Virus record (IMG/VR): IMGVR_UViG_3300025695_000111
Location: 1 to 21,876 of that record
DNA from: a virus
Length of the DNA stretch: 21,876 bases
Strand: one strand, 5' to 3'
The notes under the pieces are model-generated. The model was not told the DNA's origin. It saw only the letters and a program-made list of their open reading frames with translations, and did not search any database. Each line of letters begins with the position of its first letter. The stretch's first letter is position 1. Below, one piece after another: positions 468 through 21,876 of the stretch. The position numbers and the translations under genes were made by a program.

Positions 468-1867
468 TGGGTGGTGGTTCTCCGGCTCCGGCTCCTCCGC
501 CCCCTGCGCCAGATTACAGTTCGCAATTTGCGGGCTTGGCCAGTGGGCAGAATACAATCCGTTCGGACATTCGTTCGGCGGAAGACACGTTCCAAGACGA
601 GTCTCGTGATCTATCCCGTGAGATCACCACAGGCTTCAATGATCAAGAAGACCGTTTTGACACGGTTGATCGTGGTATCGATGATCTTGGACGAGACGTT
701 AACACAGGGTTCTCAGATGTAAGTGAGAGCCTCACAGGCCTGTCTACTGATATGGGCAACCAGTTCGACGCATTTGGTAACCGTATGGATACTGGTTTTT
801 CAGGTGTTAACGAAAACATGAACACTGGCTTCGGTTCTTTGTCCAATCAAGTGGACACCCGTTTCGGGGAACTGAATACAGGCATGAACACTGGCTTCGA
901 GACGCTAGGTTCTAACGTTAACACTGGCTTTACTGCTCTTGGTGATCTTGTAGGCGCAAATGACGCCGCTCTGATGGCCAATCAGCAAGAAGGCTTTGCA
1001 GGTGTTAATGAGAACGTCACGAACGTAGGTACGAACCTCGGCAATCAGTTGACTGAGACGTCCTCGAATGTTCTTGCAGGTCAGGCTAACATTGCAGATC
1101 TCGTACAACAGTATGGCGGCAATCTCGACACCTACTATGCGGCTTTGGCCCAAGGTCAGTCTGAGGCGGCGGCTCGTCAGGCGGCTCTGCAAACTGGTTT
1201 GGATGGCTTCCGTAGCGACTACGACACGGCTACTACCGTGGCACAGCAACAGCGTGGTCGTATTCAGGATGCTGTTATGGGTGGTAACACTCAGATCCAA
1301 GAACAGTTGGCTAGTACCGCAGATGCTAACGCACAAGGCCTTCGTAACCTTCGTGGCGACGTATCTGGTGTACAGTCAGATGTTCAATCTGGTAACGCTC
1401 AGGCAACCAAAGACTTCTCTGATGTAGCACGTCGTATTGCTACAGGCTTTGACGATGGTTCTCAGCAAAGCACGAACTTGCGTAATGAATTCATTGATCG
1501 TCTGAACACTGTTCGCTCTGTGCTTACACAGCAAGGTGATCAGATCGATGAAAACACACGTCAGACTTACTCTACTCTGGTGAGTTCGTTCGACGAGCAA
1601 GGTTCTCTTATCGCTAATAGCGTAGACAACATGGGTAACCGTACGGCCCGTGCATTGGATCAGCAAGGTAACCTACTCCTTGCACAGTTCAATACGCAGG
1701 GTCAGCGCGTAGATCAGACTGCATTGAATATCAATCGTATGATGACGCAAATGGATGCCCTAGGTTATCAGCCCGGCACTAATCAGCAAATGGGCATGAT
1801 GACAGGTGCTATGGGCAATGCGAACGTTTATTCGGGTCTAGCGTCTCCGTACGCTTCCACCCGCTAA
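467..1867 (+). CDS. Lysine-poor coiled-coil virion protein with 11-residue repeats
   Basis: A 466-residue protein beginning MGGGSPAPAPPPP, then long helical, coiled-coil-like sequence. Phenylalanines at residues 100, 111, 122, 133, 144 and 155 are exactly 11 apart in a pattern F..V/L...M/V..F, a hendecad repeat expected to form a slightly right-handed coiled coil. Residues 57-82 show heptad-like spacing. The rest is rich in Gln, Asn, Thr and Ala. The C-terminus is Met- and Gly-rich and ends in GLASPYASTR. By hand count there is a single lysine (Lys315), about 27 arginines and no cysteine. It follows the acyltransferase by a TAATG overlap with GAGGT about 9 bases upstream. Position and composition suggest a fibrous or internal virion protein, comparable by location to T7 gp14. 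No enzymatic motif is visible, and the exact place in the particle is unknown. Confidence 0.7.
   Translation: MGGGSPAPAPPPPAPDYSSQFAGLASGQNTIRSDIRSAEDTFQDESRDLSREITTGFNDQEDRFDTVDRGIDDLGRDVNTGFSDVSESLTGLSTDMGNQFDAFGNRMDTGFSGVNENMNTGFGSLSNQVDTRFGELNTGMNTGFETLGSNVNTGFTALGDLVGANDAALMANQQEGFAGVNENVTNVGTNLGNQLTETSSNVLAGQANIADLVQQYGGNLDTYYAALAQGQSEAAARQAALQTGLDGFRSDYDTATTVAQQQRGRIQDAVMGGNTQIQEQLASTADANAQGLRNLRGDVSGVQSDVQSGNAQATKDFSDVARRIATGFDDGSQQSTNLRNEFIDRLNTVRSVLTQQGDQIDENTRQTYSTLVSSFDEQGSLIANSVDNMGNRTARALDQQGNLLLAQFNTQGQRVDQTALNINRMMTQMDALGYQPGTNQQMGMMTGAMGNANVYSGLASPYASTR
764..946 (+). repeat. Tandem 33-base coding repeats (11-residue units)
   Basis: Five to six consecutive units encode the 11-residue pattern within residues 100-160 of the coiled-coil protein. 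The recurrent core is aacactggctt or a close variant encoding NTGF. The units are diverged at third positions, so this is an old protein repeat and not a recent duplication. Confidence 0.75.
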
Positions 1868-1904
1868 ACGATAAAGAAACTTGAGAAAGCCAGAGACATT
1901 ATTG

Positions 1905-2171
1905 ATGGACGATCAGCGCCTGAATAGAATTGAGACTAAACTCGACAAACTAGCTGAAGCAGTAGTGTCTCTGGCACGGATGGAGGAGCGTATGATTACG
2001 CTCTTCAACCGTATGGGGAAATACGAAGAACGCCAAGACAGCCTAGAGGCCCGTGTAGACGATGTTGAAACTGATATCGTCAAGAACGGAACAACTCTTC
2101 GCTTTGCCGAAAGAGTATTTTGGGTGGTTATTACAGCCGCCATTAGCACAGGATTTTGGTATCTAAGATGA
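1905..2171 (+). CDS. Putative holin: coiled coil plus C-terminal membrane segment
   Basis: An 88-residue protein from ATG 1905 (MDDQRLNRIETKL). Residues 1 to about 60 form a charged helix with heptad-like spacing of Leu/Ile/Met. A short polar hinge follows, then one hydrophobic stretch at the C-terminus (RVFWVVITAAISTGFWYL). This architecture resembles XhlA-type haemolysin/holin accessory proteins. The gene lies directly upstream of the lysozyme and its TGA overlaps the lysozyme ATG (ATGA at 2168-2171), so a holin or membrane-pore role is likely. An in-frame TTG at 1881 would add eight residues, but ATG 1905 has AGAG about ten bases upstream. Only one membrane span is evident, as in class III holins; an antiholin is possible. 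Confidence 0.55.
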   Translation: MDDQRLNRIETKLDKLAEAVVSLARMEERMITLFNRMGKYEERQDSLEARVDDVETDIVKNGTTLRFAERVFWVVITAAISTGFWYLR

Positions 2172-2905
2172 TCCCTGATAACGTATCCCAATCTGGGATA
2201 AACATAGTTAAGAAATTCGAGGGTTTGCACAAAGTCACCGATAGTGGCGATGTCCGTGCGTACCGTTGCCCCGCAGGTAAATGGACGATTGGCTACGGCC
2301 ATACTAAAGGTGTCCGTTCAGGTATGCGGGCCACCCCTGCACAATGCGAAGAATACCTTGTAGAGGATCTTAACGAGGCAGGTGCAATCGTACGTCGTTA
2401 TGTGAACGTACCTTTGTCACAGAACCAATACGACGCTCTCGTGTCGTTCGTGTTTAACCTCGGTGGCGGCAACTTCCGTTCAAGCACCTTGCTCAAGAAA
2501 CTGAACAAGGGCCTGTACGATGAAGTACCTGCACAACTCCTACGGTGGAACAAGGCTCGTGTAGATGGTGTTCTAACTGAGCTACGAGGCTTGACCCGTC
2601 GCCGTACCGCAGAAGCGGCTCTGTTCTCAATGGACGCTCCTCTTGCGGGTGATGGCGGAGACATGATGCCTCAGAAGCCTGAACAGGCCGCCACGAAGCC
2701 TCTCACGCGCTCTAAGACCTTAGCAGGTGCAGGTGCGGCAGGTATCGGTACTATTGGTACTGTTATCGGTGACGCGGCAAACCAGATCGAAGGTCTTGTT
2801 GCTTATTCGGAAGATCTTAAACTTGTCTTCCTCGGCCTCACCATCGTCGGCATTGCCTTAGTAACTTACGCCCGCATCAAAGACCATAAAGAAGGCGAAC
2901 GCTAA
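2168..2905 (+). CDS. GH24 endolysin (lysozyme) with C-terminal membrane anchor
   Basis: A 245-residue muramidase that cleaves the glycan backbone of peptidoglycan. The start is ATG 2168 inside the ATGA overlap. The GH24 signature is clear: Glu18 in KKFEG, Cys34 in AYRCPAG, Thr40 in KWTIGYGHT. Cys-5-Thr spacing is normal for the E-D/C-T triad, but 15 residues separate Glu18 and Cys34 instead of the usual 8, because about seven residues (around VTDSGDV) are inserted. The catalytic domain runs to about residue 155. After a linker comes a small-residue-rich stretch (about 185-204) and a strong transmembrane helix at about 219-237, followed by a charged tail. Phage lysozymes usually end after about 150-165 residues, so the C-terminal membrane part is an addition. 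It could tether the enzyme or contribute holin function. The stop overlaps the next start as TAATG. Confidence 0.88.
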   Translation: MIPDNVSQSGINIVKKFEGLHKVTDSGDVRAYRCPAGKWTIGYGHTKGVRSGMRATPAQCEEYLVEDLNEAGAIVRRYVNVPLSQNQYDALVSFVFNLGGGNFRSSTLLKKLNKGLYDEVPAQLLRWNKARVDGVLTELRGLTRRRTAEAALFSMDAPLAGDGGDMMPQKPEQAATKPLTRSKTLAGAGAAGIGTIGTVIGDAANQIEGLVAYSEDLKLVFLGLTIVGIALVTYARIKDHKEGER

Positions 2906-3168
2906 TGTTCCTTCTTAGCGGTGTCTGGGGCAAGGTTAAGCTAATCATTGCAGGTATATTCGCGGCATTGTTGCCTATCCTGTATGTCCTTGGACGCCGT
3001 GACGGTAAGAAACTCGAACAGCGTAATGCACTAGAAGATGCGGTTAACACTGAACGTGAACGCGCTGATTTCTACAAGACGATGGATGAGCACAGCAATG
3101 AAGCTGAAAACAGCAAGCCTCGTAATCGCAGTGACCTTATTAACAGGTTGCGCGGGAACGGTTTATAA
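2905..3168 (+). CDS. Rz-like inner-membrane spanin
   Basis: An 87-residue protein with one N-terminal hydrophobic helix (about residues 11-29) followed by a short basic stretch (GRRDGKK) and a charged helical periplasmic region. This is the layout of inner-membrane spanin subunits, which join an outer-membrane lipoprotein to fuse the two membranes in the last step of lysis of Gram-negative hosts. Its position straight after the endolysin, and the lipoprotein gene embedded in its 3' end, are the classic Rz/Rz1 arrangement. The protein is shorter than lambda Rz (153 residues). Spanins diverge too much for sequence alone; the call rests on topology and context. Confidence 0.75.
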   Translation: MFLLSGVWGKVKLIIAGIFAALLPILYVLGRRDGKKLEQRNALEDAVNTERERADFYKTMDEHSNEAENSKPRNRSDLINRLRGNGL

Positions 3169-3355
3169 GACTGAGCTAGACGTCTACTGCCCACCCATCG
3201 TGGAATACGACAGTCAGTTCAACAACAGATTAGCAGACGAAATCGAAAGCATACCTGTCACAGACGGAAACACAGCCGTTGTTGAAGCCCTTTCGGATTA
3301 CGCCGCACTCAGAGACAAGATACGAGCGTGTCGCAAGGAAAGAGATAATTTGTAA
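3098..3355 (+). CDS. Rz1-like outer-membrane lipoprotein spanin, embedded out of frame
   Basis: An 85-residue protein starting at ATG 3098, inside the Rz-like gene in another frame, and running 187 bases past it. The N-terminus is a lipoprotein signal peptide: MKLK, a hydrophobic core, then lipobox LLTGC with the modified cysteine at residue 18. A GGATGAG about eight bases before the ATG serves as ribosome site and favours 3098 over in-frame starts at 3038 and 3086. The mature part (CAGTVYKTELDVYCPP) is extracytoplasmic and lacks the strong proline richness of lambda Rz1. It would sit in the outer membrane and pair with the upstream Rz-like protein. The stop TAA overlaps the next ATG as TAATG at 3353-3357. 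Confidence 0.8.
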   Translation: MKLKTASLVIAVTLLTGCAGTVYKTELDVYCPPIVEYDSQFNNRLADEIESIPVTDGNTAVVEALSDYAALRDKIRACRKERDNL

Positions 3356-5229
3356 TGGCAGATCCTACTACTCCAGATGGCCTTGTTGGCGATCCTAATG
3401 CGGCCTCGGTCACGAACAACCTTACAGGTAATACACCTGCGGGCACGTTCATGGGCACGAGTTCTTCAGTCGCTACAAATGCGGATTATATCGGTGGGAC
3501 GAACATTGCGAATGTATCGTCTGACATTATCCGTGACCCCGCAGGTTTCCTCGGTAGTGAGGGCACCCTAGCGGACAACGTACCTGACATTGATCCTAAT
3601 GCTCAGGGTACGAACATTGATAATAACAAATATAACGTTGACGTAGACGCTCTCCAAGGTTCCGCACAGCAAGCGGCCGTAGGACAGGCGGCTAGTGTCA
3701 CCGCGCCTACATCTGCACCTACCTACACTGCACAGACAACCGCAGGACAGGTTGGTCAGGTAATGGATAACCTTGACCCTGCCACGGCTACCGTGACGCA
3801 GGATAACTTGGTTGATGAAGAGACGATTGATTTAGAAGGGCTTGCTACTGGCACGAACGCGGATGGTTCCGTGAACGAGGTCGGTCAGGCCCTTAATACT
3901 GTCTTCACCCAAGATATCTCCCGTATTGTCGATACGAGCACTGTATCAGGCCAATTGCTTGCAGACCGCCTCGGTGAGGGTAACTACACGGATGCTAAGA
4001 CGCAGACGACCTATTGGTTGGATGAACTGTCTAAGGACTTCGTAGATCCTAATACAGGACAACCTAAGATCCCATCGTGGGCGGCAGGTGCTCTTCGTGG
4101 TGTGAACCGTATGATCGCCTTTAAGGGCGTTACAGGTTCGGCGGCTATGGGTGCTGTAGCGGCGGCTACTATGGAAGCTATGGTTCCTATCGCACAGGAT
4201 CAGGCTAATTTCTTCCGTACGATTACTGCTAAAAACTTGGATGCCAAGAACACTCAGGCATTGCAGACAGCACAGATTTTGGCTAATATGAACTTGGCTG
4301 AAATGGACACTCGCATGGAGCAAGCTGTCTATAACGCCAAGACCTTCGTACAATACGATTTGACTAACGTTCAGAACGAACAGCAAGTCGAACTCGTTCG
4401 AGCACAGGCCAAGCAACAGGCCATTATGGAAGACGCTAACCAAGTAAACGTACAGCGTCGTTTCAATGCAGAAAACCAAACTCAGGTTGACCAATTCTAT
4501 TCACAGCTAGGCGCACAGATTGACCAGTTCAACGTCACTCAGCGTAATGGCATGTCGCAGTTCAATGTTGGTCAATCTAACGACATGTCGCAGTTCAACC
4601 TGCAAATGGAAAATCAGCGTGAACAGTTCTACCTGAACATGCAGAACCAGATTGATATGGCCAACGCTCAGTGGCGTCAGCGAGTCACTTTGACTGATGC
4701 CCAGATGGCCTTCGATGCGGCCGCTACGGACGTTAAGAACATCGTGGGCTTGACTAGCGAACAGCTAAACCAGATGTGGGATCGTTCGGATTCCCTGTTG
4801 GATTACGCTTGGCGCGAAGGTGAAAGTCAGAAAGATCGTAACGTACAGATCCAAGTCGCTAAGATGAACTACGACGCTCAGGTTGCGGCCGCGAATGCTA
4901 AGAAGAAGGGCTTCGGTGCGGTTGTTGGTAGCATTGCAGGTAACGTACTTGGTGGTTGGGCAGGATCTACAACGGGCTCTGCGGCAATCACTACTATGCT
5001 TGGTTTCTCTGACGAGCGCCTCAAAGACGATATTGTTCAATACGGCGAACTTGATAATGGCATTAAGTTGTTCAAGTGGACGTGGAACGAGGCGGCTAAG
5101 AAGATTGGCGCTGATAAGTGGCCAACATATGGCGTTATCGCTCAGGACGTTCAGAAGGTTATTCCTGATGCCGTACGTCTCGGCAAGAACGGTTACCTGA
5201 CCGTAGATTACAATAAGGTGGTAGCATGA
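3355..5229 (+). CDS. Fibrous virion protein with C-terminal S74 self-cleaving chaperone domain
   Basis: A 624-residue protein. Residues 1-230 are Ala/Thr/Asn-rich and low in complexity. A hydrophobic small-residue segment near GSAAMGAVAAATM is followed by a long helical region with Gln/Asn-rich 11-residue repeats (380-434). A second Gly/Ala stretch (VVGSIAGNVLGGWAG) precedes the C-terminal domain. That domain begins FSDERLKDDI, the signature of peptidase S74 intramolecular chaperones, with predicted nucleophile Ser552 and general base Lys557. The chaperone assists trimer folding of fibres and then cleaves itself off, here releasing about 73 residues ending VDYNKVVA. This is short for the family (usually above 100). 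It has about 28 lysines and no cysteine. Likely a tail fibre or tail-associated protein; given its neighbours, an internal core protein is also possible. Confidence 0.78.
   Translation: MADPTTPDGLVGDPNAASVTNNLTGNTPAGTFMGTSSSVATNADYIGGTNIANVSSDIIRDPAGFLGSEGTLADNVPDIDPNAQGTNIDNNKYNVDVDALQGSAQQAAVGQAASVTAPTSAPTYTAQTTAGQVGQVMDNLDPATATVTQDNLVDEETIDLEGLATGTNADGSVNEVGQALNTVFTQDISRIVDTSTVSGQLLADRLGEGNYTDAKTQTTYWLDELSKDFVDPNTGQPKIPSWAAGALRGVNRMIAFKGVTGSAAMGAVAAATMEAMVPIAQDQANFFRTITAKNLDAKNTQALQTAQILANMNLAEMDTRMEQAVYNAKTFVQYDLTNVQNEQQVELVRAQAKQQAIMEDANQVNVQRRFNAENQTQVDQFYSQLGAQIDQFNVTQRNGMSQFNVGQSNDMSQFNLQMENQREQFYLNMQNQIDMANAQWRQRVTLTDAQMAFDAAATDVKNIVGLTSEQLNQMWDRSDSLLDYAWREGESQKDRNVQIQVAKMNYDAQVAAANAKKKGFGAVVGSIAGNVLGGWAGSTTGSAAITTMLGFSDERLKDDIVQYGELDNGIKLFKWTWNEAAKKIGADKWPTYGVIAQDVQKVIPDAVRLGKNGYLTVDYNKVVA
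4492..4656 (+). repeat. Five tandem 33-base coding repeats (QF-type 11-residue units)
   Basis: Residues 380-434 of the S74 protein consist of five consecutive 11-residue units, each starting QFY or QFN (for example QFNVTQRNGMS, then QFNVGQSNDMS). The two middle units share the sequence catgtcgcagttcaa at the DNA level. The period equals that of the repeat in the coiled-coil protein at 467-1867, although the residues differ. Confidence 0.8.
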
Positions 5230-13218: not shown

Positions 13219-15177
13219 TTACGCTGAGATATCTACGATCTCACAAACACCGCCCGTACAGGCTAGGGTCTGAGAGCTTTTGGTATTGTCTTCTTTCTCG
13301 TAGTCAGAAAGTTTAGACCAATCTATTTTCTCTGGCATAGCGGCCTTAGCGGCTTCATACTCTTCCTTCGTACAGTCTTGGTACGGAGCTTGTTCGTATG
13401 TATGCTCACTGAATGGCAGGAACGAAATACCTGAGATTTCATCGAAGTTTTCGTACACCCATGCACCAACTTCCATCCATTCGTGATCCTTAACGGAGAT
13501 TGTAACAGATGGTTTGTGGTGGCACCAATGACGCTGATAGATCAGCCATAGTTCAAGCTGTTGAATGGCACTCTTGTCGTTACGGCAGATAGCACCGTGA
13601 GGGGCCTTCATAGGGAACGAGAACACTTTAGTAGAGTTACCGTTAACCACACAGTCTTCCGCAGGAATGTTCATGTCCATGAGGAACTGAGTGAGAGGGT
13701 CTTTAGCGTCACCACGCACTGTACGGATATAGTACGGGTTGTGGCGGGTATGGATGCCTGATGCTGAATCTACAAGCTGTGAGACGGTGCCTGAAGGCTT
13801 CACACAAGTGATAGAGGTAGATGGATTGATACCAATCTCAGCCGCCAGTTTCTTGTTTGTCTCTTCGGCAACCTTCTTCATTTCATCTAGCCAACGTGGG
13901 CTATCCGCAACGTTCGCCAAGACATTGTGATCCATAATCCCTGTCAGGGACACGCCCAACAAACGCTCTTCTTCCGTATTCTTCTGCCAGATGCGGCGAA
14001 GGTATGGGAAATTCGTCAGACAGCTTTGGAATGTACCGATGATGGTAGCAGTCTCTACCTTACGCTTGAGGTCAGCCTTAGTATCCTCAGCCCGTACTAC
14101 TACCTCTGAGAGGTTGCAGAATTGGTAATTTCGAAGGATGATCTCCGAACACGGGTTAGTTCCGAAATCGTGATCATGGTCGCGCATACCCGTCTTCTTA
14201 GCCTGTTCACGGGCCGCCTGACGGTTAAAGATACCACGCTCACCTGACTTAGACTCGACCAAGGCCAACCATTCACGCATGAATGTTTCCATTTCAGGCT
14301 TTGTGTCATACACGGCCGAGTTATTAGCCAAAGAACGCTGTCCATTATCCAACCACCATTGTCCCGCTTTCGCATGGCGCATACGGTCGTCAGACAGGTT
14401 TGACAGGGAGATCATAGCAGAACGACGTACGCCGCCTACAACAACCACCTGACCGACCTTACACATGATGTCATGGCACTCTAGCGCACTCAGCTTACGA
14501 CCTGTAGCACCCTTAAAGATTGACACTGTGAAATTGAACAGGTCAACAAGAGGCTGAGGGCCTGATGCACGGCCACCGAAGGTCTTTAGGCGGGCACCCG
14601 CAGGGCGAACCTTAGACACGTCCCACTTAGGGATCTCACCTGAATACAGGAGAGCTACCAATTGACGGAATGCTTTCGCCCAACCTTCTTTGCTATCACG
14701 CACCATAATGGTGGTTTCGCTATCGAATAGCTCTTCAGGCACTTCAGGCAGTTTCTTGATGTGGTCTTTCTCAACAGAGAAGCCTACACCTGTACCGCAG
14801 AGAAGGATAAACATCGCTTCATCAAACGCTTTAGGATCATCGACAGGGATATACGAACAGTTGTAGCCCGCAGTGTTGTCCCGTGCCAAAGCAGGGCCCG
14901 CAGTCATAAGCGCCCGCATAGAGGGCATAACCTCAAAGTTTAGGATAGCGAAACGGATACGGTCTTTAACCTCGTCCGTAACCGTGTAATTCAGCTTTTC
15001 CTTCAATTGGGCCGCCATGAAATCTACATAGCGAGTTACCGTCTCAACCCAATCTTCACGGCGTCCCTTCTCCTCAAGCCAACGGCTATAACGTGACTTG
15101 TAGATGAATTCCTCATAATCGCTTGGGAAAGCAATTGTACCCTTATTCTTAGTGCCTGTTTTTGACATTTTATGCAT
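13219..15177 (-). CDS. nrdJ: Adenosylcobalamin-dependent (class II) ribonucleotide reductase, monomeric
   Basis: A 652-residue enzyme converting ribonucleotides to deoxyribonucleotides, using a cobalamin-derived radical. Aligned to the Lactobacillus leichmannii enzyme, Cys343 in NPCSE is the thiyl radical site with Asn341 and Glu345 beside it. Cys107 (AGYNCSY) and Cys354 (YQFCNLSE), 11 residues after Cys343, form the redox pair. Cys640 and Cys645 near the C-terminus (ACTGGVC) are the mobile re-reducing pair. KPSGTVSQLVDSASGIHTRH is a typical substrate-site stretch. It is shorter than the roughly 740-residue bacterial reference. All key residues are present, so it should be active if the host supplies B12. 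It lies between mazG and the Rmf-like gene. The start is ATG 15177 or, nine bases in, ATG 15168; neither has a strong ribosome site. Marine roseophages and cobaviruses carry such genes. Confidence 0.95.
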   Translation of the reverse strand: MHKMSKTGTKNKGTIAFPSDYEEFIYKSRYSRWLEEKGRREDWVETVTRYVDFMAAQLKEKLNYTVTDEVKDRIRFAILNFEVMPSMRALMTAGPALARDNTAGYNCSYIPVDDPKAFDEAMFILLCGTGVGFSVEKDHIKKLPEVPEELFDSETTIMVRDSKEGWAKAFRQLVALLYSGEIPKWDVSKVRPAGARLKTFGGRASGPQPLVDLFNFTVSIFKGATGRKLSALECHDIMCKVGQVVVVGGVRRSAMISLSNLSDDRMRHAKAGQWWLDNGQRSLANNSAVYDTKPEMETFMREWLALVESKSGERGIFNRQAAREQAKKTGMRDHDHDFGTNPCSEIILRNYQFCNLSEVVVRAEDTKADLKRKVETATIIGTFQSCLTNFPYLRRIWQKNTEEERLLGVSLTGIMDHNVLANVADSPRWLDEMKKVAEETNKKLAAEIGINPSTSITCVKPSGTVSQLVDSASGIHTRHNPYYIRTVRGDAKDPLTQFLMDMNIPAEDCVVNGNSTKVFSFPMKAPHGAICRNDKSAIQQLELWLIYQRHWCHHKPSVTISVKDHEWMEVGAWVYENFDEISGISFLPFSEHTYEQAPYQDCTKEEYEAAKAAMPEKIDWSKLSDYEKEDNTKSSQTLACTGGVCEIVDISA

Positions 15178-15522: not shown

Positions 15523-16104
15523 TTACCTCAGTGGCTGTTTGCCGTGGAACCAAGAGACAAGGGCCTTACGACGCCCCCACCAAATTGGCCTCGCGACATG
15601 TGGTAGGTGAGAAGGGAAGATGATTGCCATGCCCCGAGATTTAGGGGCGGCCTTCACATAGTTCCCGTTCGGAAGATAAGTGTGTGAATCAATCTCTAGA
15701 TTGCCGCCCACATAGTCAGACGGATCTGATAGCTGAAGCACACAGGTCAGCTTACGCGTTGCTACGGCATCATTGCTGTTGTCCGTATGCTTGCCGTAGA
15801 ACTGGCCGAAGCCGTATTCCAGATACTGAAGGTCTTCCATTTGCCCGTCTAACTGTAGCTGTAGCCAACGGTCGTTAATGTCCTTCACCTCTTTCTGAAT
15901 ACGCATGAAGAACCATGAGCTATCGACACTCAAGGGAACCCAAGACAGATCACAGTTACGCGTGAAGAACTGTTTGATACTTCCCTTGTTGTTATCTAGG
16001 ACACGGCCCTTCTGTACTTGTTGGCGATCCATGAAACGACAGATGTCGTCACACTCGTCGTCATTGAACATCTTCGTCCAAGTAAACTGATTGACGTGCT
16101 TCAT
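15523..16104 (-). CDS. 2-oxoglutarate/Fe(II)-dependent oxygenase (prolyl hydroxylase-like)
   Basis: A 193-residue protein with the double-stranded beta-helix oxygenase pattern. FGQFYGKHTDNS supplies iron ligands His106 and Asp108, and PSHLPHV supplies the distal His169. Arg179 in WWGRRKALVSWFHG is placed to bind 2-oxoglutarate. The ending (FPSHLPHV, then SWFHGKQP) resembles PKHD-type hydroxylases. These enzymes couple decarboxylation of 2-oxoglutarate to hydroxylation of a protein, nucleic acid or small molecule. The substrate cannot be told from sequence. It sits between DUF3310 and mazG in the nucleotide-metabolism run, so a DNA-base or translation-factor target are both open. Such genes are common in marine phages. 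The start ATG 16104 has AGGAG upstream, formed by the end of the DUF3310 gene. Confidence 0.85.
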   Translation of the reverse strand: MKHVNQFTWTKMFNDDECDDICRFMDRQQVQKGRVLDNNKGSIKQFFTRNCDLSWVPLSVDSSWFFMRIQKEVKDINDRWLQLQLDGQMEDLQYLEYGFGQFYGKHTDNSNDAVATRKLTCVLQLSDPSDYVGGNLEIDSHTYLPNGNYVKAAPKSRGMAIIFPSHLPHVARPIWWGRRKALVSWFHGKQPLR

Positions 16105-16400: not shown

Positions 16401-16802
16401 TTAGTGCTTCCTATGTTTGCGTGGATTGAATTTCATTTTGCTGATATCGACGATATTGTCCTGCGCCTGTTCAGCTTCCCGAGCCTTCTGCACGGCTTCT
16501 AGGAACTCTTCATCAGGCTCGAAGACGATCTCCATTTCATCATCTTCATCTTCGTCGTATTCTTCTTCCATAGCGGCCATGAAGGCCCCCACAGAAGCCA
16601 TCTGACCTGCAACCAATACGCTGTCGTGTTGAGTAGAAAGGATAGCATACATGCCGCGTAGCAGGGTCTGCATATAGGCAATGTAGTCTTCGTCTACGTC
16701 GTCGTCGAACTCCCAACCGCCACCGAAGGCTAGGTTACCCTCTTCATCAAGAGAGAGTTCGATGTATACGCCATTCAGTTTCTCTAGCTGTTCTGCACTC
16801 AT
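16401..16802 (-). CDS. Acidic phage protein of unknown function
   Basis: A 133-residue protein that is strongly acidic, with a near-continuous Asp/Glu run at about residues 79-100 (EEEYDEDEDDEMEIVFEPDEE) ahead of a basic C-terminus (KMKFNPRKHRKH). A hydrophobic stretch around LLRGMYAILST is too short and mixed for a clear membrane helix. The acidic run could mimic DNA or bind a basic partner, which is speculative. The start overlaps the endonuclease I stop as ATGA, with AAGGAACG upstream. No known family was recognised. Confidence 0.72.
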   Translation of the reverse strand: MSAEQLEKLNGVYIELSLDEEGNLAFGGGWEFDDDVDEDYIAYMQTLLRGMYAILSTQHDSVLVAGQMASVGAFMAAMEEEYDEDEDDEMEIVFEPDEEFLEAVQKAREAEQAQDNIVDISKMKFNPRKHRKH

Positions 16803-17251
16803 GTCACGTTCCTTAATGATGCAATGATTTCCAAAGAGGCTTTGTTATGCTTTTCCTTCAGCCAATTTCTTGGAACGAGAGTGTCAGCAAACTGGAAGCC
16901 ATAACGCGCACACCACATGCCGTACGTCGTCTTTGATCCCTTACGGATCTTTCCTTTGCTATTGGTAAAGACGAAACGAAGGTCTAGCTCAGGATACTGT
17001 TCCTGAATTAGTAGGTGCTTCTTGCGGTCTTCCACAGTGAAGCGCCCCTTCGTCTCAATTACGATACCATTAGGAAGAAGAAAGTCAGGGGTGTAGTAAT
17101 GGTCAGTTTCAGGGATCACATAGGGAATACGAAAGCATTCATATTCCGCATCGACACCTGCCTTAACCAGTTCACTCTGAACCTTCTCTTCCAAGCCTGA
17201 TCGATAACCTGCCGCGATGGCACGAGCGTTTGTAGGGCGCTTCTTAGCCAT
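16799..17251 (-). CDS. Endonuclease I (Holliday junction resolvase), T7 gp3-like
   Basis: A 150-residue protein nearly identical in length and layout to T7 endonuclease I (149 residues). T7 endonuclease I cuts branched DNA, resolves junctions before packaging and helps break down host DNA. Matching blocks are YRSGLEEKV, PYVIPETDHYYTPDFLLPNG, IETKG and DRKKHLLIQEQYPELDLR, then NWLKE. Predicted catalytic residues are Glu21, Asp56, Glu66 and Lys68, equivalent to Glu20, Asp55, Glu65 and Lys67 of T7. The start is ATG 17251, where GAGGAAG precedes it and the gene overlaps the upstream nuclease by eight bases. A longer open frame to 17431 is an artefact inside that nuclease. Confidence 0.95.
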   Translation of the reverse strand: MAKKRPTNARAIAAGYRSGLEEKVQSELVKAGVDAEYECFRIPYVIPETDHYYTPDFLLPNGIVIETKGRFTVEDRKKHLLIQEQYPELDLRFVFTNSKGKIRKGSKTTYGMWCARYGFQFADTLVPRNWLKEKHNKASLEIIASLRNVT

Positions 17252-18116
17252 TAGCTTCCTCATTATACTCTGAATACCAGAAGTGGCGTGGAGAGGCCGC
17301 CTTAGAGCCTGTCTGGGGCTTGTAGACAGCGTCAGGCCAACACTTGCGCTGATACGAACAGAACGTGCATGACGTATGTAGACGCTTGCTACCTGTAGGC
17401 TTGCTACGGAAGTATTCGTTCGTAGGCTCAAAACACCTTACGAATTCCTTGTCTTCAGAGACGTGCTTAATACGCTCGACAATCTCAGTCTCTAGTTTCT
17501 CTAGATCCTGTGGCGTAGGTTCCGCTTCAACAACACGGATTTCTCCCGTCGATTTGTTAACGACGATCCAACCACCCATGTCAGTGTTAGTGCCACGAGT
17601 GTATCCTAGAAGCTGTGCGGTATAACCGAAGGCATCATCCTTAGCGACACCATGCCAACCATCTTGCCATTTATTGTCGTAGGCCCAAGGGGAAGACGAC
17701 TTGGTATCGTAGGTCTTACCATCGATCTCAATATCGTTCTCGCCTTTGATGACAGTTCCTGCAACCGCGTACTGAGCCTGAGACTTACCGCCCGTGATAT
17801 TGGCACCAGACACGCGCAGTAATACCTCGACAATAGCTTCGATAGCATCGCCTAGCATCATACGCACAATGTGGTTGTACGGCATACGAGACCGTTCCTC
17901 GCCCGCCTTTTCCATTTGGAGTTGGCAGGTAGGGCGTCCGATATTGCTCATACGGAGACGGAAGGGTTCCTTCTCACGGAACAGTTGCTTACGCAAACCT
18001 TCCTTGAAAAGTTCTCCTGCCTGTTCGATCCACTCTTCTTCACAGTGAACGGATTCACCATTAGAGAGTTTGTCTAGCGTCATACGGAGACGCGCCTCAA
18101 GCGGTGAAATAGACAT
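17244..18116 (-). CDS. Cas4/RecB-like PD-(D/E)XK nuclease with four cysteines
   Basis: A 290-residue protein. The nuclease core shows Asp128 in KGENDIEIDG, Asp137 and Lys139 in YDTKSS, and the RecB-family motif Gln168...Tyr172 (QLLGY). Cys64 near the N-terminus plus Cys250, Cys253 and Cys259 (SCTFCSYQRKC) reproduce the Cas4/AddB arrangement that holds a 4Fe-4S cluster. It is probably an exonuclease for recombination or host DNA degradation, filling the place of T7 gp6. No CRISPR array or other cas gene is present, so this is a phage recombination nuclease. The start ATG 18116 has GAGG about eight bases upstream. A longer frame beginning with GTG 18167 would run through the terminator and is rejected. 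Confidence 0.82.
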   Translation of the reverse strand: MSISPLEARLRMTLDKLSNGESVHCEEEWIEQAGELFKEGLRKQLFREKEPFRLRMSNIGRPTCQLQMEKAGEERSRMPYNHIVRMMLGDAIEAIVEVLLRVSGANITGGKSQAQYAVAGTVIKGENDIEIDGKTYDTKSSSPWAYDNKWQDGWHGVAKDDAFGYTAQLLGYTRGTNTDMGGWIVVNKSTGEIRVVEAEPTPQDLEKLETEIVERIKHVSEDKEFVRCFEPTNEYFRSKPTGSKRLHTSCTFCSYQRKCWPDAVYKPQTGSKAASPRHFWYSEYNEEANG

Positions 18117-18137
18117 AACTAATCCTCTATTAGGGGC

Positions 18138-18164
18138 AAAAGAGGGGCACATTGGCCCCCCTTT
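18138..18164 (-). terminator. Intrinsic terminator inside the leftward operon
   Basis: On the minus-strand RNA, AAAGGGGGGC (complement of 18155-18164) pairs with GCCCCUCUUU (complement of 18139-18148) across a 6-base loop, with one G-U pair, and a further U follows. On the plus strand the G-U becomes an A-C mismatch, so the hairpin favours leftward RNA. It lies between the SSB stop and the nuclease ribosome site and would lower expression of everything downstream relative to SSB. Confidence 0.75.
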
Positions 18165-18177
18165 CACAAGTTTCGGT

Positions 18178-19008
18178 TTAGTCGTCTAAATCGTCCGCCA
18201 GATCGCCTTCGAGGGCGTCCAACGCATCATCATCCAGTTGATTGCCGCGAATGGCATTCTGGTAGGCAGATTCAATGCGATCATTGTCACGCTTAATCAT
18301 TTGCGCCATATACACCATCGTGTCATAGGTATCCTGATCCAACGGAAGAGTTTCCGACAGGTCAGGTTTGAAGTGCATGACGTAATAGGTGACTGAGCCA
18401 TTTTCTAGCTCTTCAGCCGATAGCTCACACCAATAATCGTAGAAGTTAGCGCCACGAGGTAGTGTCTTAACATACTCGTCCTCGAAGGGAGAGAAGTTCG
18501 CGCCCTTGAGAAACATTATAGCAGGTTTGTTCTCGACAGTCACTGAATTTCCGTCGGCATCCTTACCTTCGTAGGACACAAGAACGCGAAGGATACGGTT
18601 ACATTTGATGCCCTCGTATTTCTTCTGTTCTGCCTTTCCGAGTTCATTCAGAACCTTCGATGTAGGCTTACCACAACGCAATGTACCTTTCTGATCACGA
18701 GGCTCCACACGGAAGTTCGGGATCTGAATAGTACGGTTAACCACCTTCTTCTCAGTATTGTCGAAGTGAATCCACTGGAACAATTGAGAGAGAACACGGA
18801 TTTTGACGTTGTCGGCATACACTGCCTCGTCTTCAGATTTAAGGAAGAATTTACCTTCCTCAATCTTACGACCCTGCGGGTCTTTCCGACGGGAATTAAC
18901 GGTCAAGATTGGTAGACGATCCCCACTGCTTGCGGGAGCATCACTGGTTCCCAAAAGGGCGGCAAGTTCACGTTGCTCTGATTGGTCGATGACGGCCAGA
19001 CTGCTCAT
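18178..19008 (-). CDS. Probable single-stranded DNA-binding protein
   Basis: A 276-residue protein directly downstream of DNA polymerase. The core (KFFLKSEDEAVYADNVKIRV, FQWIHFDN, CNRILRVLVSYEG, KPAIMFLKGANF) looks strand-rich, as in OB-fold proteins. The C-terminus is highly acidic (LDDDALDALEGDLADDLDD), like the tail that T7 gp2.5 and other SSBs use to contact polymerase and helicase. Similar proteins in marine podoviruses are annotated as ssDNA-binding. The start ATG 19008 has AGGAGA seven bases upstream; another ATG two codons earlier touches that ribosome site and is too close. The downstream terminator would make this the most abundant product of the operon section, as expected for an SSB. 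It is larger than gp2.5 (232 residues). Confidence 0.7.
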   Translation of the reverse strand: MSSLAVIDQSEQRELAALLGTSDAPASSGDRLPILTVNSRRKDPQGRKIEEGKFFLKSEDEAVYADNVKIRVLSQLFQWIHFDNTEKKVVNRTIQIPNFRVEPRDQKGTLRCGKPTSKVLNELGKAEQKKYEGIKCNRILRVLVSYEGKDADGNSVTVENKPAIMFLKGANFSPFEDEYVKTLPRGANFYDYWCELSAEELENGSVTYYVMHFKPDLSETLPLDQDTYDTMVYMAQMIKRDNDRIESAYQNAIRGNQLDDDALDALEGDLADDLDD

Positions 19009-19054: not shown

Positions 19055-21175
19055 TCATACGTCAACACTAACTGGTGCTTTTTCCATCCAGTTTTTGCCT
19101 GATTCAGCTTCAACATCTAATGGAAGTACGGGCGTGTAATCGAAGCGAGTTTTAAGCTCCTCTCCGACATCCCTCATTGCCCACACGAGGGTTCTTACGA
19201 CCTCGTCACGCTCACTCGGAAACACGTCTACAACGATTGAATCGTGGACGGTCAGGATCAGCTTTGACTTGAGGTTCTTGTCTCTAAACGCTCTCAGTGC
19301 ACGGATGCATGAGAGAGGCACACAGTCCGCCGTAGCGAAACTCTGCACAGGATAGTTTACCACGGCTGTGGCGTTCGTTATGCGGCCATTTCTAAGTCGC
19401 TTGGCATTTGGAAAATAGAATTCGCGACCGCTAGGAATTCTGACAATTCCGTCTCGGATAACTCCATCCATAAGGGTTTTATGCCACCGCTTGAGCCCTT
19501 CATAGATATTGAAGTACTCCTTGAAATACGTCTGAACGTGCGGTGGCTCGTTTGCTCCCATTCCGCCATAAAGTGGTGCAAATGTGTAGGCTTTCGCTTC
19601 TTGGCGCAGGGTCTTATCAACAGCGTCAACTGCACATTGGTTAATGATGGATGCAGTTTGCTTGTGTACGTCTTTACCCGATAGGATATCGTCGATGATC
19701 TGTGGATCACGGCTCAGTTCTCCTGCGACACGGAACTCAAGACCTGAGAAATCAAGCTCCATAATCTCGCCACCTTCAAAGCGTGAGACTACGCACTTGC
19801 GAACAGGGAATGTGCCACCGCGCGGTAAGTTTTGGAAGTTAGGATTTGATGAAGACAGACGACCTGTTCTTGTAGTGCACTGGTTAAACTGTGCGTGAAG
19901 GAACCCGTCAGGACGCGTATGCGTTTGGATACCCTTAACGAACGAGTCTAGATAAGTGTTCACAGCATTTAGTCGGCTAATGCCTTGCAGGAACTGAACA
20001 GCAACAAGATTATCCTTGCCATATGCCTGAGCAACCAGACGCTTGATAGTCGTCTTGTCTGTCTTAAACCCGTTGATAGATGCATCCATAGGGCCTTCAG
20101 GAACTAGCTTTAGACCTGCAACCTTACCTGTTTCCATCAAGGTAAAACCTTGTCCATCACAGTGAGGGCACTTAGTCAGGTTCTTCCACGGGGTGCCATC
20201 TTTCTTGTATTTCTGGAGTTTGCCTCCACCTTTGCAGGGTTCACAGTGATAGGCGACCGTCTTCATTACACGGCGGGTGAACTTGCGTACTGCATTCGTG
20301 AATTGGCTATGGGATAGACGGGCAGGGGGAAGAGGCTTGCCGTTAGCACCTACGCCAATATTGAAAGTACGCTTATGGGATTCCTTGTCTACAACCGTGC
20401 GCGAATACACGACCTTAGTCATGTCCGCACCTGAGTTAAGGTTGATAGGCGTATCGCCCATCACGTCCTTGACGATCTCTTCCAGTTTCTTCTGGATCTC
20501 CTCCTTCTCGTTAAGGAACTCTTCCTCAACCTCGTTCAAGGCATTCATGTCGATCCTGATACCGTTACGCTCAATCTCCACGAGGAATTGTGTCATTTCG
20601 TTCATTAGCGTGAAGACAGGCTTCAGACCTGCATTACTGTTCTTCTCAAGATCAGCCTGTTGCGCTAGGTAGATCTCTGCACAGGACAGTACGTCAGCAT
20701 CTGCGTATTCAATGACAGTGTCCAAGGGCATTTCAGAGAAGTCCATCTTCTGAACCTTGAACAATTCATCGACTAGATCAGAACGCTTACGGGTTACGTC
20801 ACGGCGCTCGGCTGTAGCTTTAAGCGACAGTTCCTTACGTTGACCACGGGCGAAGATGTATTCCCCGATCATGGTGCAATACCACTCTTTAGGAACCTCT
20901 AGGCCCGCCTCTAGGACGTATAGGTAGTCGAACTTATCGTTGTGAGCTACGCCGACATCAGCCGAGGCAAGAGCCTTAGCAAACGCGTCTGGGCTATCTG
21001 GATTTTCGCACTCTTTGTGATAGAAGATTGAACGCTCTGCTTCTCCGATCACGCCATCTTCTATTATTCTCCAATGTGCGCTCACTATCCTGTTCTTCGG
21101 ATGGAACGGACTGTTGTCGATGGTGCCATTCTCCCTCTGCACCGTCGTCTCTAAATCGAATACTATTACTTTCAT
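19055..21175 (-). CDS. polA: Family A DNA polymerase with 3'-5' exonuclease and inserted zinc motif
   Basis: A 706-residue replicative polymerase of T7/Pol I type. The exonuclease domain (about 1-175) has Asp7 and Glu9 (FDLET), HNDKFDYLYV with Asp83, and Tyr157/Asp161 (EYADAD). Polymerase motifs are TGRLSSSNPNFQNLP (437-451), motif A Asp475 and Glu480 (DFSGLEFR), motif B Lys528, Phe532 and Tyr536 (KAYTFAPLYGG), and motif C His644-Asp645 (TVHDSIV). Phe532 occupies the E. coli Phe762/T7 Tyr526 site. Between the two halves, around residues 260-360, is an insertion with CEPCKGGG (311-318) and CPHCDGQG (336-343), two DnaJ-type CxxCxGxG motifs likely binding one zinc. This falls near where T7 carries its thioredoxin-binding loop. 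The start ATG 21175 has GGAG eleven bases upstream. All catalytic residues are intact. Confidence 0.96.
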   Translation of the reverse strand: MKVIVFDLETTVQRENGTIDNSPFHPKNRIVSAHWRIIEDGVIGEAERSIFYHKECENPDSPDAFAKALASADVGVAHNDKFDYLYVLEAGLEVPKEWYCTMIGEYIFARGQRKELSLKATAERRDVTRKRSDLVDELFKVQKMDFSEMPLDTVIEYADADVLSCAEIYLAQQADLEKNSNAGLKPVFTLMNEMTQFLVEIERNGIRIDMNALNEVEEEFLNEKEEIQKKLEEIVKDVMGDTPINLNSGADMTKVVYSRTVVDKESHKRTFNIGVGANGKPLPPARLSHSQFTNAVRKFTRRVMKTVAYHCEPCKGGGKLQKYKKDGTPWKNLTKCPHCDGQGFTLMETGKVAGLKLVPEGPMDASINGFKTDKTTIKRLVAQAYGKDNLVAVQFLQGISRLNAVNTYLDSFVKGIQTHTRPDGFLHAQFNQCTTRTGRLSSSNPNFQNLPRGGTFPVRKCVVSRFEGGEIMELDFSGLEFRVAGELSRDPQIIDDILSGKDVHKQTASIINQCAVDAVDKTLRQEAKAYTFAPLYGGMGANEPPHVQTYFKEYFNIYEGLKRWHKTLMDGVIRDGIVRIPSGREFYFPNAKRLRNGRITNATAVVNYPVQSFATADCVPLSCIRALRAFRDKNLKSKLILTVHDSIVVDVFPSERDEVVRTLVWAMRDVGEELKTRFDYTPVLPLDVEAESGKNWMEKAPVSVDV

Positions 21176-21239
21176 TGCTAGGAATACTCCAAAGGTTTAT
21201 CGGTGGTAGCCTCAAGTCAGGCCACTTAATTTTCGGCAT
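20994..21239 (-). CDS. Possible small ORF overlapping the polymerase start
   Basis: An 81-residue frame that begins 14 bases inside the end of the GNAT gene and overlaps the first 182 bases of polA out of frame. The N-terminus, MPKIKWPDLRLPPINLWSIP, fills the gap between the two genes and resembles short phage proteins with a WPDL...PPINLW motif, as far as I recall. The remainder is Arg/Ser/Glu-rich with no clear fold and may be shaped by polA. AGGA lies only one base before the ATG, a poor spacing, so initiation may depend on termination of the upstream gene. Uncertain; it may be a by-product. Confidence 0.35.
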   Translation of the reverse strand: MPKIKWPDLRLPPINLWSIPSNESNSIRFRDDGAEGEWHHRQQSVPSEEQDSERTLENNRRWRDRRSRAFNLLSQRVRKSR

Positions 21240-21876
21240 TTCCTATGTACTCATGGGAATAACTGACGATATCTCGCGGTGCCCATCCGCCTAGATGCGT
21301 CCTGCCTTTGTCACGCCGCTTCTTCATGTTCTTAGACGTGGGCTTCCACAAAGGTGAGTTATTGCGATACTCGCCCATTCGTGGGTGAACCGTCTTACTG
21401 AAGTAGCGACAACCTTGACTGACATACATTTCAGCAATTGCGTCACTGATGCGTACGCCAATCCCCAAGCCTTGGTAGTCAGGCAACACAACGGTGCGAT
21501 GACCACGGTAGGCATTCTTTACTGTTCCTGACGGGTATGAAATGGCAGATCCAAATCCAACGACATTTGATCCCCACAGGCAGATCCAGAATTTTCCACT
21601 CTTATTGATGTTTTCTGTGAGATAGTGATGCGCGCTGAAGATTGGCCACGCGCTGACCCCACAAGGTAAGAGTTCCAACTCAATTGCGGGACGTCGAAGA
21701 CACCCCCTCGGCAAAAACTTGCCTTGCACTGTGTCAAACACCCAATCAGGTTTAAGCCATTCGATAATGTCATAGTGACACGATGCAAAAACCACATTGC
21801 GTAACCCTTTGTTACGAATGTATCGGCTCACTGCATTAGCACAGGATTTAGCTACGTTACGATCTATCACACTTGT
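21226..21876 (-). CDS. ABC-type ATPase/GNAT acetyltransferase fusion (5' end outside window)
   Basis: The frame is open to the window edge, so only the last 216 residues are seen. The first part (NVVFASCHYDIIEWLKPDWV, then VFDTVQG) looks like the end of an ABC ATPase, with the H-loop histidine in SCHYDI. After LRRPAIELEL comes a GNAT fold with the acetyl-CoA loop DYQGLGIGVRIS and preceding strand HRTVVLP. This matches a family of ATPases fused to predicted acetyltransferases found in archaea and phages; the substrate is unknown. If the gene starts inside the window, GTG 21870 would give 214 residues, but the ATPase remnant argues that most of the protein lies upstream. It precedes polA and may be the first of several genes co-transcribed with it. 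A basic stretch (KNMKKRRDKGR) follows the core. Confidence 0.75.
   Translation of the reverse strand, partial: TSVIDRNVAKSCANAVSRYIRNKGLRNVVFASCHYDIIEWLKPDWVFDTVQGKFLPRGCLRRPAIELELLPCGVSAWPIFSAHHYLTENINKSGKFWICLWGSNVVGFGSAISYPSGTVKNAYRGHRTVVLPDYQGLGIGVRISDAIAEMYVSQGCRYFSKTVHPRMGEYRNNSPLWKPTSKNMKKRRDKGRTHLGGWAPRDIVSYSHEYIGNAEN

Follow-up and report, generated by a model that had tools for sequence, protein, structure and literature searches.

A thumb-tip insertion with paired CxxCxGxG motifs in the family-A DNA polymerase of an HMO-2011-type marine phage contig

HMO-2011-type phages have been described as dominant and broadly distributed in the ocean (PMC9038755). The DNA polymerase of HMO-2011 was described as carrying a partial DnaJ domain between its exonuclease and polymerase domains, a feature with two CXXCXGXG motifs that is shared by three RCA phages (PMC6918029, 2019). 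The presence of the two motifs serves as a group criterion in PMC9038755 (2022), where seven isolates and 207 metagenomic genomes carry them, and the same two-motif criterion is applied in PMC8528129 (2021). The motifs have been tied to zinc binding and to the part that DnaJ plays in lambda replication (PMC9038755). The words thioredoxin and processivity are absent from the text of PMC9038755, and PMC6918029 contains a single "thioredoxin", in a reference title. A literature search for a zinc or DnaJ motif in the thumb of a phage family-A polymerase gave nothing further of relevance among the entries that it listed. The GenBank record of HMO-2011 lists the Pfam DnaJ central domain (PF00684) in the polymerase gene itself.

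The thioredoxin-binding domain of the T7 DNA polymerase (gp5) is likewise a thumb-tip insertion in a podovirus family-A polymerase. In T7, thumb helix H1 spans residues 339-348 and is followed by strands 6c (355-357) and 6d (361-363) and by helix H2 (365-372), with the thioredoxin-binding-domain peptides 269-288 and 294-302 located N-terminal to H1 (PMC9198812). The peptides L346-K355, covering the end of H1 and strand 6c, and G360-R373, covering strand 6d and H2, crosslink to template DNA, and so does the thioredoxin-binding loop (PMC9198812). Shortening of the thumb of E. coli Pol I lowers both processivity and fidelity (Minnick 1996, cited in PMC10061031). Plant organellar DNA polymerases, likened here by description, carry Lys-rich thumb insertions thought to contact duplex DNA, and no zinc motif is mentioned for them in the available part of that source (PMC7699545).

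The window, i.e. the whole stretch of 21,876 nucleotides analysed here, encodes at 19055..21175, on the minus strand, a 706-residue family-A DNA polymerase with a 3'-5' exonuclease (Pfam DNA_pol_A, PF00476, E=3.4e-56; PHROG 17 "DNA polymerase", E=2.6e-102). Residues D7, E9, D83, D161, D475, H644 and D645, which we take to be the catalytic residues, are invariant in multiple alignments of relatives. The best named matches are the polymerases of Roseobacter phages CRP-3, CRP-235 and CRP-212, with 58-60% identity (60% for CRP-3), and the polymerase of Puniceispirillum phage HMO-2011 itself is 38% identical. Altogether, 12 records show 34.8-59.8% identity over 99-100% of the query, the full-length similarity expected of an HMO-2011-type polymerase. 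Judged by this sequence similarity, the window is a contig of an HMO-2011-type marine phage. The polymerases of, among others, HMO-2011, CRP-1, CRP-2, CRP-3, CRP-212, CRP-235 and Pelagibacter phage HTVC033P belong to the same family and share the insertion and the cysteine pairs, with no essential difference. A plasmid search with the polymerase gave no record in which 80% of it was covered at any one place. The polymerase of another contig, IMGVR_UViG_3300003621_000381, is 100% identical to that of the window, and the two probably come from the same virus population. In Methylophilales phage MEP402 (positions 1501-3612 of its locus), the annotation splits the family-A polymerase into gp13 and gp15, with a small ORF in between.

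Several other genes of the window could be assigned. The polymerase gene adjoins a GNAT acetyltransferase (21226-21870, minus strand; PF00583, E=3.9e-08), and a DNA helicase occupies this place in the records of HMO-2011, CRP-3 and HTVC033P. After a Cas4-domain-like exonuclease (17244-18167, minus strand; PHROG 1990, E=3.4e-26) comes a gene for a phage endonuclease I (16799-17431; E=1.6e-63), and a 2OG-Fe(II) oxygenase (15523-16104, minus strand; PF13640, E=2.8e-13) lies within the replication and nucleotide gene block.

The original prediction placed a CEPCKGGG/CPHCDGQG pair between the exonuclease and polymerase motifs; the sequence, place and spacing of the pair proved right, with motif starts 25 residues apart. 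The first motif corresponds to residues 311-318 (20222..20245, minus strand) and the second to residues 336-343 (20147..20170, minus strand). They are separated by a 17-residue basic hairpin tip, KLQKYKKDGTPWKNLTK, at residues 319-335 (20171..20221, minus strand). The predicted span, 20094-20310 or approximately residues 290-361, takes in the half that bears the motifs, the whole insertion being longer (about residues 258-373). The four conserved cysteines suggest that the pair holds one zinc. When the polymerase was shuffled 200,000 times, at least one CxxCxGxG appeared in 150 shuffles and two in none; a chance origin of the pair was rejected on this ground and on its full conservation in relatives. 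Across the six frames of the window there is only one other CxxCxGxG, at 14902 on the minus strand. As required by the published definition of the group (PMC9038755), the window polymerase carries two CXXCXGXG between the exonuclease and polymerase domains, with a PF00684 score below the cut-off. PF00684 gives a weak match to residues 309-346 (E=0.0022, 18.7 bits for a cut-off of 32.7), and at E<=0.1 it matches all 45 aligned relatives, over profile positions 16-54 of 65. A PDB sequence search with the insertion alone returned phototropin (E=0.0043), plastocyanin and DnaJ 1exk (E=9.5); the phototropin and plastocyanin matches were treated as chance.

The motif pair itself is thus already published for HMO-2011-type phages, and the window polymerase is a further member of this group. 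Its conservation can be described more precisely. The four cysteines are present in every one of 174 HMO-2011-type polymerases, namely 11 isolates and 163 distinct contig sequences, the latter being nearer relatives since the searches kept the best 80 of 102, the best 80 of 568 and the best 80 of at least 599 relatives. Among 165 distinct contig polymerase ORFs, obtained from 229 viral-contig loci, the pattern C-x2-C-x21-C-x2-C is present in 163, and the two ORFs lacking it are outgroups (L248 and L249) fetched by other queries; outgroup queries in viral contigs gave few loci. One search pattern, KLQKYKKD, lies inside the insertion and favours carriers, but the two patterns of another search lie outside the insertion and their loci still have the four cysteines. 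The CxxCxGxG of the first motif is present in all 163 distinct four-cysteine contig polymerases, and its two glycines are found throughout the 173 sequences with fixed spacing. The second motif is laxer: at this fixed spacing its cysteines and last glycine are kept in 173/173 sequences, the first glycine in only 116/173, the other 57 having T, A, S or K. CRP-2, CRP-207, CRP-345 and CRP-603, four of the 11 isolates, have CxxCx[AT]xG at this place, which makes the published requirement of two CXXCXGXG motifs a little too stringent. The polymerase of CRP-738 has 12 extra residues, rich in K and R, between the cysteine pairs and keeps the four cysteines.

The hairpin between the pairs is also highly conserved. 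In the 173 sequences, K or R occupies two positions at 99%, and G and an aromatic residue (F, Y or W) are each present at 100%; the net charge of the hairpin is +3 to +6 in every one of them. Over 45 sequences, the 61-residue core of the insertion averages a net charge of +8.1 versus -10.5 for the other ~640 residues, a basicity that is not extreme, as equally or more basic 60-residue segments occur in the same protein (median share 0.087, worst 0.31). When the phage collection was searched by tblastn with the 121-residue insertion, 12 records came up at E<=6e-9, from 11 distinct phages that all belong to the HMO-2011 type; all further matches had E>=0.01. A single match of the insertion in a bacterial genome was judged spurious; it falls in an amino-acid transport locus (one scan). 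Vibrio phage 1.209.O (Zobellviridae) represents a relative without the insertion and has only a short loop at the corresponding site.

To locate this site in the thumb, alignments to Klenow and T7 gp5 were combined with a predicted structure. The AlphaFold2 model of the polymerase (45 sequences) has a pLDDT of 90.3 and a pTM of 0.83, with values of 86 to 94 for ten-residue blocks over residues 291-360. Against Pol I large fragments it scores a Z of about 33, the Bacillus fragment 3ht3_A giving a VIA-align Z of 33.1 and an rmsd of 3.0; since 548 of 706 residues are aligned to these fragments, the insertion appears as an addition to a complete polymerase. As context, a search of a viral structure library gave 211 matches at E<=0.001. 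In multiple and pairwise alignments, INLNSGADMTKVVYS of the window polymerase aligns with NLSSTKQLQTILFEK of E. coli Pol I (Klenow), which is helix H1, and in the multiple alignment GFKTDKTTIKRL aligns with Klenow GAPSTSEEVLEEL, which is helix H2. The pairwise alignment of the window polymerase with Pol I ends at the insertion and covers H1 only, H2 being placed by the multiple alignment and the predicted model. The thumb-tip insertion of ~100 residues (258-373; 20057..20404, minus strand) hence lies between helix H1 (249-257) and helix H2 (374-386). DSSP of the model assigns to it two helices, 264-270 and 289-299, and two strands, 304-310 and 344-352, which flank the cysteine pairs.

In T7, the segment from FNPSSRDHIQKKL to DDEVLEGV aligns pairwise with the same two Pol I helices with no large gap; the placement of the T7 thumb relies on this pairwise alignment and on the helix numbers of PMC9198812, as the multiple alignment set the T7 H1 off the other H1s. 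The H1-H2 site is occupied by a short hairpin in T7 and E. coli Pol I and by the insertion in the window polymerase. The pair had been predicted to lie near the thumb, where T7 has its thioredoxin-binding loop. The thumb tip is indeed the location, but the T7 position does not hold, since the T7 loop precedes H1 and the insertion follows it; an identical site was therefore rejected. T7 gp5 also has no CxxC, and no sequence similarity was found between its loop and the HMO-2011-type insertion. On the other hand, the T7 peptides 346-355 and 360-373, which crosslink to the template, bracket the H1-H2 hairpin, indicating that the insertion emerges from a part of the thumb which in T7 is in contact with DNA. 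Since the insertion is confirmed at the thumb tip and is found in every close relative examined, neither a position away from the thumb and the DNA path nor an absence from close relatives, the two outcomes named beforehand as counting against the original prediction, was observed.

An insertion at the H1-H2 site also occurs in phiKT/phiKMV-type polymerases (Autographiviridae and kin), whose full-length profile match to the HMO-2011-type is 100% (E=1.4e-74), the profile alignment being firm outside the insertion and poor through its middle, so that the two insertions are at most putative homologues. Unlike the HMO-2011-type enzymes, none of 11 such polymerases has a CxxC. Their cysteine-free insertions at this site carry a basic glycine loop (such as GKNKG, GKNAG or GKKKG), so that a basic thumb-tip extension appears to be a recurring design.

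Collectively, these data could be explained by a basic finger, stapled by zinc, that provides the thumb tip with further DNA contacts and so raises DNA affinity or processivity, a reading that we consider slightly better than an even chance. According to this model, the four invariant cysteines would bind one metal, most likely zinc, and the metal would hold together a ribbon of two strands (304-310 and 344-352), at the end of which a loop carries the basic signature K-x-K-K-[DN]-G-x-P-aromatic. The insertion would take the place of the short H1-H2 hairpin of the thumb, which touches the template in T7, and the finger could run along or over the primer-template duplex, providing extra backbone contacts. 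The HMO-2011-type enzyme would then possess a built-in grip where T7 borrows thioredoxin. As a counterpoint to a DNA grip, the H1-H2 hairpin could serve as a docking surface.

A docking partner may be proposed from the gene that follows the polymerase. It encodes a candidate single-stranded-DNA-binding protein (SSB) of 276 residues when read from an inner ATG (18178..19008, minus strand; the ORF is open to 19116); the first ATG of the ORF falls within the terminal part of the polymerase gene, and the inner ATG at 19008 better fits the lengths of the relatives. The AF2 model of this protein (pLDDT 85.6) has T4 and RB69 gp32 as its closest folds (VIA-align Z 7.5, 7.3, 6.9 and 6.7), a moderate match with an rmsd of 4.1 over 174 aligned residues for gp32 2a1k_B (Z 7.5). 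Among non-gp32 folds, a phiC31 integrase-RDF chain (9teh_I) reaches Z 6.6 and the rest 4.3 or less. The best Foldseek match has E=0.015, with none at E<=0.001, and sequence comparisons gave no PHROG or PDB profile match and only scattered weak Pfam matches, thus no sequence family. T7 gp2.5 was rejected as a relative: profile comparison gave a probability of 0.2%, and the fold points to gp32. T7 gp2.5 is also absent among the fold matches listed, an absence compatible with kinship. By its predicted fold, the gene after the polymerase is a candidate SSB of HMO-2011-type phages. In each of the 140 distinct loci that have 700 nt or more of downstream sequence, a member of its family comes directly after the polymerase. 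By charge count, the protein of the window has an acidic C-terminal tail (18181-18255, minus strand), with a net charge of -9 over the last 25 residues, and a net charge of -4 or lower over this length is found in 69/69 distinct C termini of the family versus 10/348 other ORFs.

By analogy, the basic finger might dock the acidic tail of the adjacent SSB and so tether the polymerase to the fork, which we judge unlikely but better placed than the readings that follow. The constant neighbourhood, the acidic C termini and the gp32-like predicted fold are in line with such a contact, and the tail of T7 gp2.5 binds the T7 thioredoxin-binding domain (PMC7699545). However, the gp32 match is moderate, and acidic tails are common in bacterial and phage SSBs, as in E. 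coli SSB, gp2.5 and gp32 (PMC2965674), so that the tail does not single out the finger surface. A DNA grip and a dock for the SSB tail can both be true. An acidic helicase tail, such as that of T7 gp4, lacks support as a partner of the finger, since the three helicases examined end with net charges of +1, 0 and +2 over 25 residues.

More doubtful is a purely structural staple, in which the zinc knuckle would serve to hold a long thumb loop in its fold and would itself make no functional contact. It agrees with the cysteines being stricter than the DnaJ-like glycine (116/173), as expected if metal binding matters, and with the cysteine-free insertions at the same site in other phages. Nevertheless, the hairpin tip, with its K-x-K, glycine and aromatic residue, is nearly as conserved as the cysteines, which goes beyond the needs of a passive loop.

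It is very improbable that the insertion acts as half of a DnaJ-like zinc domain which recruits host DnaK to the replisome. The CxxCxGxG motif is shared with the cysteine-rich domain of DnaJ, the weak PF00684 match falls in the middle of that profile, and DnaJ has a part in the replication of lambda, as the 2022 paper points out (PMC9038755). However, the domain of E. coli DnaJ has four motifs and two zinc sites, as opposed to two motifs and at most one metal site here; the second motif is degenerate in 57/173 sequences, and the spacer between motifs is 17 residues versus 14 between motifs 2 and 3 of E. coli DnaJ. Furthermore, 45 polymerases match 12 Pfam families at E<=0.1, none of them a J-domain, and no J-domain turned up in any of the 11 isolate genomes. 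Having half the repeats and no J-domain, the insertion was rejected as a member of the DnaJ domain or co-chaperone family. Equally improbable is the binding of a redox partner, thioredoxin or glutaredoxin, as in T7: the insertion adjoins the T7 thioredoxin-binding site across helix H1 and 6/11 isolates encode a glutaredoxin, but the insertion point differs from that of T7, no glutaredoxin was found in the other isolates and none of the 11 encodes a phage thioredoxin, a gene content compatible with a host thioredoxin.

Returning to the insertion itself, the present analysis adds its exact place in the thumb, distinct from that of the T7 loop, together with a basic tip that is conserved, a second motif that tolerates more change, and a neighbouring gene product with an acidic tail and a gp32-like predicted fold. 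More tentatively, and with less confidence than in the DNA contacts themselves, the HMO-2011-type replicase may be viewed as a self-contained clamp, whose zinc-stapled finger would make it processive with neither thioredoxin nor another borrowed factor and may also take the acidic tail of the phage's own SSB. In the available portions of the literature, the "partial DnaJ domain" of this replicase is a label with no stated role; once the domain is placed on the side of the thumb that contacts the template, a testable idea emerges, that of a built-in zinc clamp. If true, HMO-2011-type phages would have a second solution to the problem that T7 solves with thioredoxin, and devices for processivity or docking would have been acquired at two separate places in the thumb tips of phage family-A polymerases.
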